Assembly: GCA_964019415.1 (NCBI GenBank)
Contig: OZ025886.1
Span: forward strand, 4,118,201-4,182,200
Direction: 5' to 3'
DNA from: Ianthella basta
Lineage: Eukaryota; Porifera; Demospongiae; Verongiida; Ianthellidae
Length of the DNA stretch: 64,000 bases
Position numbers and translations under genes: made by a program
The notes under the pieces: generated by a model
Databases searched by the model: none
Told to the model about the DNA's origin: nothing
The model's input: the letters and a program-made list of their open reading frames with translations, nothing else
Shown: piece after piece, positions 22,202 through 64,000 of the stretch
How positions within the stretch are numbered: position 1 is the first letter of the stretch
Layout: every line of letters begins with the position of its first letter

Positions 22202-23401
22202 ATGGGGTTCAAAGCCAAGCTGCTGCTCCTAGTGGCCCTCATGATGGGAACAGCCTCTGTAGTAGCACAGAAGGCTACCAAACAGCCAGACACTCAGACA
22301 GCTACTCAGACAACCAACCAACCAATCACTGGAAACACTTGTCAAGTAGTGCAGGGTCCACCTGGCCCTCCAGGTACCTGCTCCTACACTGAGGTCAGCC
22401 TTGTAAAGGGAGTCAAAGACATTAGCACAACTCTCAAAGAGACTGTGAAAAACTCGACTACAGAACTGAAAGACACTTACATTGATCTGAGAGACATCTT
22501 GCAGGAGGGTCTACAGGAGCTGAATAATGGCTTGAAAGACGCATTGGGGAATATCCAGAAAGAAGTTGCTAGACTCAAAACAGAAGAACCACCCTGCCCT
22601 CGCTCACTGGGATTGACTTCATACAAACCAGCCAAATCCTGCAGGGAGATTCATAATTGTAACCCTTCCTCTCCGTCAGGCTACTACTGGCTGAAGAGTG
22701 ACACCACTGAGTGCCGGGAGGTCTACTGCGACATGGAAACCACCCACTGCAACATCAAGGGAGGGTGGATGAGGGTGGTGTACTTCAACATGAGTGAACC
22801 AGGAGCTAGCTGTCCCAACTCACTCCGACAGATCAACACACCTGCCAAGTTGTGTGGACGACGCACAGCTCCAGGATGTTCCAGTGTTACATACCCTGTT
22901 GATGGCATCTGCTACAGCAAGGTCTGTGGACAGGCAAGGGGCTACCAGTACTACTCCACTGATGCATTTGATCCTTCTAAAGTTACAAATGACATCAACT
23001 CCCACTATGTTGATGGTGTCTCCATCACATATGGGAGACCACGTCACCATCTCTGGACATATGCTAGTGGGCTCACTGATGACTACAATCACAATGGTCT
23101 CTACAACTGTCCCTGTGCCAAGTACCCTGGCCCCAATCCTCCTGCCTTTGTTGGACTGGACTACTACTGCGAGTCGGGATTCACTGGACCACATCAAAAC
23201 AGAATAGCCCTTGAAGACCCTCTGTGGGACGGTGATGGATGTGGTCCAGACAACACCTGCTGTGCACAGGCTGGGATGCCATGGTTCTGTAGGACCCTCC
23301 CACAGGAAGTGAGTGAGGACATTGAGGTGCGCCTGTGTTCTGATCAGGTCAATTCAAATGAAGAGATCTATGTAGACCTAGTGGAGGTGTATGTGCAGTA
23401 A
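22202..23401 (+). CDS. Secreted ficolin-like protein, class A, long stalk (gene 1)
   Basis: An intronless frame of 399 aa from the ATG at 22202. An in-frame ATG at 22178 would add eight residues ahead of a good signal peptide, so I prefer 22202. Domains: signal peptide about 1-23 (KLLLLVALMMGTA), Thr/Gln-rich linker, collagen-like GPPGPPGTC, a helical stalk, then a Cys-rich fibrinogen-related domain beginning PAKSCREI and continuing through REVYCDMETTHC, GGWMRVVYFNMS (N-glycosylation sequon), CGQARGYQYY, YVDGVSITYG, CPCAKYPG, DPLWDGDGCG and CCAQAGMPWFC. The tail is NEEIYVDLVEVYVQ. The stalk is longer than in the other intact class A copies (extra segment ending LGNIQKEVARLKTEEPPC). By analogy with ficolins it probably forms secreted oligomers that bind a ligand; this is inference. 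It is one of two copies on the plus strand and faces gene 3 tail to tail. Confidence 0.88.
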   Translation: MGFKAKLLLLVALMMGTASVVAQKATKQPDTQTATQTTNQPITGNTCQVVQGPPGPPGTCSYTEVSLVKGVKDISTTLKETVKNSTTELKDTYIDLRDILQEGLQELNNGLKDALGNIQKEVARLKTEEPPCPRSLGLTSYKPAKSCREIHNCNPSSPSGYYWLKSDTTECREVYCDMETTHCNIKGGWMRVVYFNMSEPGASCPNSLRQINTPAKLCGRRTAPGCSSVTYPVDGICYSKVCGQARGYQYYSTDAFDPSKVTNDINSHYVDGVSITYGRPRHHLWTYASGLTDDYNHNGLYNCPCAKYPGPNPPAFVGLDYYCESGFTGPHQNRIALEDPLWDGDGCGPDNTCCAQAGMPWFCRTLPQEVSEDIEVRLCSDQVNSNEEIYVDLVEVYVQ

Positions 23402-24257
23402 ATGCACACAAGCACAGTAGAGAACATGCAATGCAGCACTAGAAACACAATAGGCTTACCAATACTAATGTGAAAGTGTATCCTTGAGTAGTGCAAGCAA
23501 GTTGAACAGATTAGCTATTGGACCAAGTGGGAGTGATCATAAAAGAGACATTGATTTAGTGCATACTATGCATACGTATGTATAAGGTATGCGTGTAACA
23601 TATATAACAGTGGCCAGTGGCAATTAATCCAGCCACTTTGCACACACACACACACACACACACACACCTTCACTCATACTGTAAGCAAGTTTCCTTTTAC
23701 AAAGAGATGGGGAGCCTGTGCACAGCAGGTGTTGCCATGCAAGTTGTGTATGCAACTTATTAGGCCTGTATGGCTGTATGTACAGTATAAGGCATTATAT
23801 ACTGTGCTTGCAGTGGACATGTATTGCATATAAGAAGATGGCTACAGCATGTTCCATCCCATTTAAGCAGCATCATCATTCAATCATATAAGCAGTACTG
23901 TCGCTACACCCAATATCTATGTATGAACACATTAGTAAGGTTAGGATATCTTATATGCTAGCCGCTATTGAGCTAGCTACTGTGCAGTAAGTCTTCAGTA
24001 GATTCACAATTTCTAGCCCTGGTTAACATTTGAGGTCTGCACTCACTCGTGTAAGTAAAGTATTTGGAGCAACACACTCTCATGTGCATAGTAGTGTCAA
24101 ACAATCGATGATCTTCTGTAATAACATGCAAAGCTACCATGTTGCAATACTCTACTCATGTGATTGAGTACAGAACAAAATATCAATCACGAGTAGAAGT
24201 AATGAATCTACTGTGTGTACCTATATTGTTATTGTAATGCTGTAGGTTATGTATTGC
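23402..24257. other. Spacer with duplicated flanks
   Basis: 23402-23600 is the inverted counterpart of 24940-25134. 23605-23850 repeats 21522-21790 in direct orientation, with a (CA)n at about 23640-23667. The rest shows no gene. Confidence 0.6.
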
Positions 24258-24560
24258 TCACTGCACATGCACCACCACTAGGTCTACATAGGTTTCTTCA
24301 TTTGAATTGGGCTCATCAGAACACAGGCGCACCTCAATGTCCTCACTCACTTCCTGTGGGAGGGTCCTACAGAACCACAGCATCCCAGCCTGTGCACAGC
24401 AGGTGTTGCCTGGACCACATCCATCACCGTCCCACAGAGGGTCTTCAAGAGCTATTCTATTATTGTCCTGCCAATGACCGGTGAATCCAGACTCACAGAA
24501 GTAGTCCAGTCCAACAAAGGCAGGAGGCGCAGTACCAGAGTACTTAGCACAGAAGAGCAT
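24258..24560 (-). pseudogene. Class A ficolin-like C-terminal fragment fused to promoter sequence (relic 1)
   Basis: Only the last 95 or so codons remain (AKYSGTAPPAFVGLDYFCES through VDLVVVHVQ). The usually invariant GMPWFC is GMLWFC. Immediately upstream on the minus strand, from about 24561, the sequence is the class A promoter flank (compare 26395-26600), so about 1 kb of coding and leader sequence was deleted. There is no leader peptide, so it is a relic. Confidence 0.85.
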
Positions 24561-61838: not shown

Positions 61839-63297
61839 ACTGGGCAGACTAATAAGGAGCTGACATGTCTGGCATTGTGATGCTGTCTAGGTGTTAAGTG
61901 ATCTGCATGGGTCACCCTGCAGGGGAGGCTCCAAGACATGTACAGTGCCTTGAATGGTCGTAGTTATGTATTAATTTTAATTAATGAGTATATAAGTTTG
62001 AGGGTTTGTGTACTGGTGAGGGCCAGGTGCACTGTATATGAAGGGAGAGAGGAACAGTACGTGAGAGGGCAATAGAGAGACGATATTTCAATCGTCAGGT
62101 AGACAATTGCTTAAATGCAACAAAATGAAAGTGACCAATGTATCCCCTTCTGTCACTGCTGCTTGCATCTGGCTATTTGGTCAATGTGCCAGTCATTCCC
62201 ATGAGAGCTGGCTGAAGTGAAGGAAGCATGCATGATCTCAACAAATGCCCACACTCTGCTGTTCTCAATTTTGCATAGTTATGTATTCAAGATAGCCTGG
62301 GGCCATGCACTCTTTGGTTGGCAAGATGTGCAGTTAATACGACAGTTTATATTATGCTGAAATTACTGTATTATATTACCATCAATTATTGCACGTATAG
62401 TTGATTGTAAATGTGCAATAATGCTTGTGTATGCACACATGCAGTGGGTGGACTAACCAAGATTGAGCTGACATGACTTGCATTGTAAAGTTAACTAGTT
62501 GTGCGTTTGTCACCCTGGCCAGCTAGCCCCAAGAATCATGTGTGCACATAAATGAATGATGCCTATAATAATTATACATTGTTGGTGGAAGTGAATGGTG
62601 AGTCATTAAGAGGAGAGGGACCTTATGACAGTGACAGAGGAATCACTAATCATGCAGTCAACTCCTACAGTATACGTGAGCAAATGAGCCAGCATGCCGC
62701 CTTGGGTCACAGCTGCCTGGTTAGTGTGTGTGTAGTTGATGTACCATTGACAGATTGCCCTTCGATCCCATGAGTTATGTTGGAAATGAAACCTTTCACA
62801 CATTAACTGTATCTTCGGCTGTTCCAATGTCTGCATATTTGTACATGAAGAAATTATTTTGTAGCATTGAAAGCATGCAAGTTGTGTTTGTAATGCATGA
62901 ACCCACTACAAGGACTGTATGGCTACTTTGTAGTCCATCGCTATGGCAACAGGACATAACACTGTAACTAAGTGAACAACCATGCACTCACAGAAGTGCC
63001 AGATAGTACGTATACATGATGCATACATGTGTGCCGTGTATGTGTGTATGTGTGCATGTGTGCACATGTTCTGTGTGTGTGCTTTGCACCCTCATGTAAT
63101 GAATTAGTGAATGCACTCACAGCCCTGTGATAACTAGTACATATAGATGTACTCTCCAATCAGAAACAGTGTAAATATACAGTTCTACATGCTATCTATG
63201 AACACAGTAGTAAAGGTTAGGACTATGCTCTTGGGCTATTTACTGGTGTATCTTCGTATCTATGTTGTTCACTATTTCTGTACTGCTGTGTGCATGT
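61839..63297. repeat. Segment duplication copy 3, right part
   Basis: Matches 32001-34160 (without the internal tandem duplication) and 56660-58107. No gene seen. Confidence 0.8.
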
Positions 63298-64000
63298 TCA
63301 CTGGATGTACATCTCCACCAGGTCTACATAGATCTCTTCATTTGAAGTGCCTTCATCAGCACAAATGTGCACCTCAATATCCTCACTCACTTCCTGTGGG
63401 AGGGTCCTACAGAACCATGGCATCCCAGCCTGTGCACAGCAGGTGTTGCCTGAACCACATCCATCACCGTCCCACAGAGGGTCTTCAAGGGCTATTCTGT
63501 CCTGCCAACGACCGGTGAATCCTGACTCGCAGTAGTAGTCCAGTCCAACAAAGGCAGGAGGTGCGGGACCAGGGTACTTAGCACAGGGACAGTTGTAGAC
63601 ACCATTTTTGTAATTGTAGTCATCAGAGAGTCCAGAGACATATGTCCAGAGATGGTGACGAGGGTGCCCATATGTGATGGAGACACCATCGACATAGTAG
63701 GAGTTGATGTCACTTGTAGATGCCTGGAAGGCATCAGTGGTGTAGTACTGGTAGCCCCTTGCCTGTCCACAAACACGATTGTACGAAAAATTGTATGTGG
63801 GAAAGACGACTGAAGTACAGCCACCTCCACCGTTTGAGCGTCCACAGAGTTTACGTGGTGAGTTAATCTGCCTCATTGGCAGAGGGCAGACAACTTGTGG
63901 ATGGGTCATGTTAATGTATGCAACTCTCGCCCACCCAGTAGTGCCACAGTGATAGGTCTCCAGGTCACAGAATACCTTCTTAACAATGTTTGGCATTTGC
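63298..64000 (-). CDS. Secreted ficolin-like protein, class B body with class A-like tail, 5' part outside window (gene 14)
   Basis: The frame is open from the right edge to 63298, at least 233 codons. It starts inside the class B motif MPNIVKKVFCDLETYHC and passes NMTHPQVVCP, CGRSNGGGGC, SYNRVCGQARGYQYY, loops QAST and YKNGVY, and RWQD with two residues fewer than most copies. The tail SNEEIYVDLVEMYIQ is of the class A kind, so this is another mosaic. A few substitutions are unusual (GCGSGNTCC for GCGPGNTCC). Leader and stalk lie beyond the window, so intactness cannot be judged. Confidence 0.82.
   Translation of the reverse strand, partial: QMPNIVKKVFCDLETYHCGTTGWARVAYINMTHPQVVCPLPMRQINSPRKLCGRSNGGGGCTSVVFPTYNFSYNRVCGQARGYQYYTTDAFQASTSDINSYYVDGVSITYGHPRHHLWTYVSGLSDDYNYKNGVYNCPCAKYPGPAPPAFVGLDYYCESGFTGRWQDRIALEDPLWDGDGCGSGNTCCAQAGMPWFCRTLPQEVSEDIEVHICADEGTSNEEIYVDLVEMYIQ

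Follow-up and report, generated by a model that had tools for sequence, protein, structure and literature searches.

How have genes whose N-terminal halves fall into two distinct classes come to share one kind of C-terminal half? This question is raised by a 64-kb window of the genome of the sponge Ianthella basta (C19:4,118,201-4,182,200, in an assembly of 209.09 Mb and 96 contigs), in which a dense gene family occupies positions 22178-64000 with 12 near-full copies (8 open, 4 broken) and additional fragments. Each copy is a single reading frame. The N-terminal classes, A and B, are about 40% identical to each other, and the C-terminal half is 77-85% identical to that of the first copy, g22A, in uninterrupted copies of both classes; this confirms the two classes with a shared half described in an original prediction from the window's sequence. 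The array extends about 50 kb past the window, to about C19:4,232,210 (array positions continue the window numbering past 64000 along C19), and comprises 26 tabulated copies, 16 A and 10 B. In our judgement exchange between the copies is shown. The array is likely to encode secreted intelectin-like recognition proteins, in which 5' modules of class A or B have been paired with a shared pool of 3' modules through recombination.

The divergence between the classes was followed along the gene across the aligned codons of 22 C19 copies (12 A and 10 B; g34A, g72A, and g91A, with frameshifts or many stops, and g109 are excluded), using synonymous p-distances in 40-codon windows. Up to the VCGQARGYQYY block the A-B synonymous p-distance is saturated (0.59-0.87); past the block it is 0.09-0.32, close to what is seen within classes. 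The last 23 columns give 0.57 (A-B), 0.36 (A-A), and 0.48 (B-B). The mean p-distances in the front, middle, and tail are 0.477, 0.102, and 0.286 for A-B, 0.084, 0.109, and 0.212 for A-A, and 0.078, 0.079, and 0.233 for B-B, respectively.

Among the 18 distinct copies (the near-identical duplicates g74B, g77A, g80B, and g83A being excluded), fixed differences between A and B are found in 181 of the 513 gap-free columns before the block, and in none of the 462 after it. The last fixed difference is in the codon immediately before VCGQARGYQYY. Simulations on the single best tree produced 71-107 fixed differences in the back half in 50 of 50 runs, and never 0; stop codons are masked in this control, with observed numbers of 179 (front) and 0 (back). 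The upstream edge of the exchange is at VCGQARGYQYY and is defined to the codon, and the central block was thus correctly identified as the exchange point by the original prediction. In g22A the edge lies at 22913-22954 (+), where the A/B difference stops just before VCGQARGYQYY (22922 on), and the other copies are alike in this respect. Within the back half, the synonymous distance has its minimum (0.02-0.12) in the DPLW...WFCRTLP block and is 0.30-0.57 in the tail; such a low value in this block is expected if the block is an exchange track. A table of the nearest copy by zone, for 21 copies, displays further switches within the back half.

The same disagreement between the halves is seen in the trees, which include related arrays on C20 (58-75% identical) and C17 and leave out broken copies (3 of 21 from C20 and 1 of 7 from C17). 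The parts of C20 that were fetched contain a single B-type copy among A-type copies (C20:997001-1023000 is outside the sequence examined). In the front-half tree the classes hold together across contigs, with a support of 98 both for C19-A plus C20-A and for C19-B plus the C20 B copy. In the back-half tree, A and B of C19 are mixed, with one clade of seven B and two A copies at 100 and a second of three B and four A copies at 78. The approximately unbiased (AU) test on 42 sequences rejects three topologies: the front-half history imposed on the back half (p = 0.0028), separate A and B clades in the back half (p = 0.0016), and a joint clade of C19 A and B in the front half (p = 0.0019). A simple tree, or fixed combinations, had been named beforehand as the result that would speak against exchange; run as far as possible, this check does not refute it. 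In the DNA tree of the back half, all A and all C19 copies group together to the exclusion of the C20 B copy (support 91), which suggests that the B genes of C19 acquired a back half of A type.

The flanking sequences extend this pattern beyond the coding region. The 5' flanks sort by front class and subclass, and the 3' flanks by tail type. The T3 flank (tails of the IELVEVYIQ type) is common to g58A, g34A, and g72A and to g63B, g36B, and g74B, with an identity of 85-93% in alignments of 293-937 bases, not counting duplicates of the same copy; the T4 flank (LEIFVQ type) is common to g54A and g66A and to g49B, g106B, and g27B (81-93%, 88-414 bases). Within class A, all four pairings of fronts A1 and A2 with tails T1 and T3 are present (g91A, g58A, g39A, and g34A), of which g91A and g34A are broken. 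Since the 3' flank tracks the tail and the 5' flank tracks the front, the 3' flank belongs to the unit of exchange, and the promoter side stays with the front half.

Some details of the combinations differ from those originally described, namely two starts joined to three tails in all six ways. There are five clean combinations of front and tail, because none of the array's 10 B copies has a VxLVEVYVQ tail; the copy assigned to that cell, gene 14 (g63B), ends in VDLVEMYIQ and has the 3' flank of the IELVEVYIQ group. Moreover, there are more than three types of tail and 3' flank. The broader proposal of diversification by recombination or gene conversion is strongly supported by the fixed differences, the simulations, the AU tests, and the flanks. 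Past the window end, at array 109,500 and 112,787, two A copies are preceded, 400-600 bases upstream, by a relic of a B leader. One of them, at array 109500-111008 (g109H), had been considered a hybrid of a B leader and an A body; this candidate was rejected, the copy being an open A-type frame of 346 residues without the collagen stub, with the B-leader relic some 400 bases upstream. The mistaken hybrid reading is why this copy is missing from the codon analyses.

The arrangement shown by these data may be described as two modules. The 5' module comprises the promoter side, the signal peptide, usually a GPPGPPG stub, the stalk, and the fibrinogen-type head, and exists in the anciently separated forms A and B. 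The 3' module comprises the cysteine-rich C-terminal part, the tail, and the 3' flank, and forms one pool for A and B, common to both through repeated recombinational exchange of the 3' part between copies. The tail and the 3' flank are exchanged additionally, on top of the exchange at the VCGQARGYQYY edge. The stalk presumably oligomerises the protein, and the C-terminal part, with its four patches of variable length, is the putative binder of ligands such as microbial glycans or those of other sponge cells. The exchange would then re-pair, in the germline, a given putative binding end with different expression and oligomerisation ends. Either unequal crossing-over or long-tract gene conversion may be the mechanism: the sharing of flanks favours unequal crossing-over or long tracts, and the partly kept alternation of A and B favours gene conversion.

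The layout of the protein is a signal peptide (identified by eye), usually a GPPGPPG stub, a stalk, and then about 250 residues. The family had been called ficolin-like. As in ficolins, the order of parts is a leader, a collagen-like stub, a stalk, and a fibrinogen-type head, and to this extent the description holds. Ficolins, however, have a full fibrinogen domain and a collagen region, both of which the array proteins lack by Pfam: Fibrinogen_C (PF00147) has no match in the window and none at E <= 1 in the four proteins scanned, the collagen repeat has none at E <= 1 in the same four, and the collagen-like stretch is the seven residues GPPGPPG, missing from one array copy (array 109,500). 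What the Pfam, NCBIfam, and Protein Data Bank (PDB) models do match is the head. In g22A, Pfam recognises the beginning of the fibrillar-collagen C-terminal domain at residues 145-193 (28.5 bits against a cut-off of 26.2); in the three further proteins scanned the score is just or well below that cut-off. The YCDxxxxGGGW fibrinogen-like head (NCBIfam NF040941) is matched by class A (45.9 bits, cut-off 30) and weakly, under the cut-off, by class B (24 bits). In a PDB profile search, collagen C-propeptides and intelectins match the head only (E 1e-5 to 2e-4), and the matches stop by position 165 of the 359 of the family profile (profile A1, built from 88 sequences, of which five come from the window itself, among the 120 listed of 1,645 matches). 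These three kinds of head model match no more of the domain than its first 50-60 residues. The protein therefore seems, by sequence, to consist of a short fibrinogen- or intelectin-type head and a cysteine-rich C-terminal part without a family name. 'Ficolin-like' applies to the order of parts at most, because Fibrinogen_C is absent from the window and the matches are confined to the head. Elsewhere in the genome Fibrinogen_C has at least 141 matches (the best 150 of 178 candidates being scored), often clustered, on C2, C9, C16, C6, and C20, which amount to a second large fibrinogen-type repertoire.

The array is not described in the open-licence literature found on sponge fibrinogen, ficolin, or intelectin families. 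The original statement that no named system matches it is nevertheless too strong, as the clustered placozoan 'intelectins' look like the same type of protein and, compared by description, are the nearest one. According to the accessible part of the source (PMC6321704), these Trichoplax proteins have a fibrinogen-related head of at most 70 residues and, after it, a C-terminal part that is specific to the family and has 10 conserved cysteines; they are secreted, are encoded by up to 31 clustered genes, and are proposed to act in extracellular defence. The array shares with them secretion, the short fibrinogen head with a family-specific C-terminal part, and clustering of genes (PMC6321704). In contrast, the placozoan proteins are described there as lacking collagen repeats and coiled coils, whereas the array proteins have a stalk and usually the GPPGPPG stub, and the exchange of halves present in the array is not reported in that part of the source (PMC6321704). 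The resemblance to vertebrate intelectins (X-type lectins) consists of matches between the head and chains of XEEL and of human intelectin-1 (E 3e-5 to 2e-4), but in sequence the similarity ends at profile position 165 of 359, with none past the head.

Diversifying families of a similar kind are already known in the fibrinogen-related proteins (FREPs) of snails and in the SpTransformer genes of sea urchins. Biomphalaria FREPs are likewise secreted recognition proteins of the fibrinogen type; gene conversion diversifies them, and somatic diversification is reported for them as well (PMC12074976). They carry immunoglobulin superfamily (IgSF) domains and a full fibrinogen domain (PMC7588048); IgSF domains have no Pfam match at E <= 1 in the four array proteins scanned. 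SpTransformer (PMC8634487) is an unrelated protein and a mosaic of internal repeats, unlike the two front classes combined with a shared back-half pool of the array.

A role in the recognition of microbes or of other sponges may be inferred from the anatomy of the proteins, the copy number, the variable patches, and relatives proposed as defence lectins, and the immune or self/non-self function originally suggested is plausible on these grounds. If such a role is true, an early-branching animal re-pairs likely binding domains with other front ends and promoters by recombination in a tandem array, and the locus is a concrete candidate for how sponges distinguish microbes and other sponges. The fuller proposal, of a sponge recognition locus (for microbes or self/non-self) with recurrent recombination at conserved blocks that re-pairs a module of promoter and stalk with a binding module, individual-specific haplotypes, and combinatorial receptors in a non-bilaterian, is rather unlikely.

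Several observations weigh against the account of recombining recognition genes. A third of the near-full copies in the window (4 of 12) are broken. The pairwise homoplasy index (PHI) is 0.239 against a null of 0.425 (0/1000) for the 18 distinct C19 copies, and 0.428 against 0.522 (0/1000) for 16 C20 A copies (c20_7A excluded), but the C19 front half alone, with all 18 copies, gives no signal (594/1000), and the implementation is anti-conservative, 8 of 20 null simulations having reached <= 10/200; PHI is therefore not counted as proof of exchange. The protein tree puts the C20 B copy elsewhere than does the DNA tree, and a direction of exchange from A to B, which would rest on the DNA tree (91), is therefore tentative. 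Finally, the back half has four patches variable in both sequence and length, with 12-15 forms among 18 copies, separated by blocks nearly invariant in protein; the ratios of nonsynonymous to synonymous differences (pN/pS) of the patches are about 0.9, 0.85, 0.3, and 1.1 (whole back half, 0.46), so that the patches are diverse without proof of positive selection, none being clearly above 1.

The last of these observations is also consistent with the exchange being incidental, that is, with the concerted evolution of structural or adhesive matrix proteins without a role in recognition. Recombination is usual in tandem arrays anyway, and the head also matches fibrillar-collagen C-terminal domains (28.5 bits in g22A, as noted above). 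Yet the length-variable patches stand between invariant blocks, the copy number is high in several arrays, and the clustered placozoan relatives are proposed as defence lectins (PMC6321704); a merely incidental exchange is fairly unlikely. Even without a recognition role, the array remains a clear natural example of anciently separated copies exchanging sequence, with a codon-level edge and another edge in relatives.

A second alternative is one ancient event, in which a single A-for-B replacement of the back half was followed by tree-like evolution without further exchange. In agreement with it, the back half of the C20 B copy branches outside those of all A and C19 copies in the DNA tree (91), and since this copy is outermost, one founding replacement is likely to be part of the story. 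As the whole story it is very unlikely, because A and B back halves are intermixed within supported clades, two types of tail and flank (T3 and T4) are each present in both A and B, all four pairings of A1 and A2 with T1 and T3 exist (two of them in broken copies), and B-type proteins elsewhere have their edge at another position.

This other edge was found in a comparison set of 143 proteins, 18 of which have the B-type head motif. Three of the 18 belong to this genome (P0079, which is g63B; P0081, which is g49B; and P0093, the C20 B copy) and retain the B-type segment up to VCGQ. The other 15 of 15 are A-like already from GW(M/V)R(V/L)AYLNMTEPGASCP, about 50 residues earlier, and in a tree of the segment from GW(M/V)R(V/L)AYLNMTEPGASCP to VCGQ the 11 full-length early-edge B-type proteins tested fall among A proteins. 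One of the 15, P0059, has a closest own-genome match of 77%; the remaining early-edge proteins, being without a high-identity match in this genome, probably come from other genomes. The position of the edge differs between lineages, and therefore at least two exchange events took place.

Two further proteins of the set, P0010 and P0022, match nothing in this genome above 92% and also speak against a single event, as they carry new pairings of front and back unlike any own copy. The front of P0010 is that of g112A (227/241), but its back half is nearer to g77A (149/159) than to g112A (120/156). The front of P0022 is that of the stub-less copy at array 109,500 (169/178), and its back half is nearest to g36B (144/158, as against 121/158 for the array-109,500 copy). 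The contig given for both is 2,020,559 bases long, the length also given for a protein identical to g58A, and we infer that they come from another haplotype or individual.

It is highly unlikely that the mosaic is an artefact of assembly, with haplotypes or near-identical copies wrongly stitched together. A 16-kb tandem segmental duplication (array 30225-46149 versus 68738-84645, the second copy lying beyond the window), 98.6% identical and carrying four to five gene copies with identical stops, could be a retained second haplotype. However, the sole run of N in the 124 kb examined is one of 1,500 bases at the far end, and the array itself is gap-free; g45A, g49B, g63B, g93A, and g112A are matched exactly past the first 25 residues by proteins of a database contig of 655,332 bases, which may or may not rest on independent reads; and a similar mosaic with its own edge is present in other sequences. 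That no exchange took place, A and B being old duplicates with C halves alike merely through protein constraint, is suggested by the long C-half blocks nearly invariant in protein but is exceedingly improbable, as A-B synonymous similarity equals that within classes past the edge and is saturated before it, fixed differences are absent from 462 back-half columns and never so in 50 simulations, and non-coding 3' flanks are common to A and B. Barring an error of alignment or assembly, the synonymous sites and the flanks refute this alternative.

The copies in the window are as follows, with gene numbers of the original prediction assigned by order (genes 2 and 5 are fragments). Open copies with front A1 are g22A (gene 1; 22178-23401, +; tail VDLVEVYVQ, T2; back half from 22922), g25A (gene 3; 25135-26295, -; tail VYVQ with the T2 3' flank; back half 25138-25617), g54A (gene 12; 54188-55348, -; LEVLEIFVQ, T4; back half 54191-54670), and g58A (gene 13; 58108-59277, -; IELVEVYIQ, T3; back half 58111-58599). 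Those with front A2, both of tail VELVEVYVQ (T1), are g39A (gene 8; 39034-40170, -; back half 39037-39513) and g45A (gene 10; 45122-46222, -; back half 45125-45601). The open B copies are g49B (gene 11; 49683-50774, -; front B2; LEILEIFVQ, T4; back half 49686-50168) and g63B (63298-64000, -; front B1; T3-type 3' flank; back half 63301-63774), which runs past the window end to array position 64380.

The broken copies are g27B (gene 4; 27715-28803, +; front B; an LEI-type tail with the T4 flank; back half 28327-28800), interrupted by one internal stop and ended by another stop three codons too soon; g34A (gene 6; 34161-35325, -; front A2; IELVEVYIQ-type tail and flank, T3), which is frameshifted; and g36B (gene 7; 36201-37283, -; front B1; IELVEVYIQ, T3; back half 36204-36677) and g42B (gene 9; 42244-43329, -; front B1; LEILEIFIQ, T5; back half 42247-42723), with one internal stop each. 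The fragments, all on the minus strand, are back-half only (24261-24551 and 46697-46957) or degenerate A-like front halves (30925-31606 and 60787-61462).

Genome-wide the family has at least 110 matches (102 of 628 candidates being scored), with more distant relatives on C2 and elsewhere; a large cluster of distant relatives, 42-51% identical to the window family, lies at C2:2.6-3.1 Mb. On the mitochondrial contig, COX1 is read with TGA as Trp, and AGA and ATA fit best, by eye against conserved residues, as Arg and Ile; four tRNA calls fall within the 4.3 kb around it. These features point to a sponge, cnidarian mtDNA having one or two tRNAs. To the left of the array, a 401-aa frame at window 752-1957 (+) resembles the end of a reverse transcriptase (RVT_1, 21.4 bits, cut-off 29.6) and is probably a relic of a long interspersed nuclear element (LINE)-like element. 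Sub-threshold matches to a PrmA methyltransferase at 5000-5500 (+; 21.3 bits) and to an acyl-CoA oxidase at 14903-15424 (+; 19.6 bits) are perhaps exons of ordinary genes.

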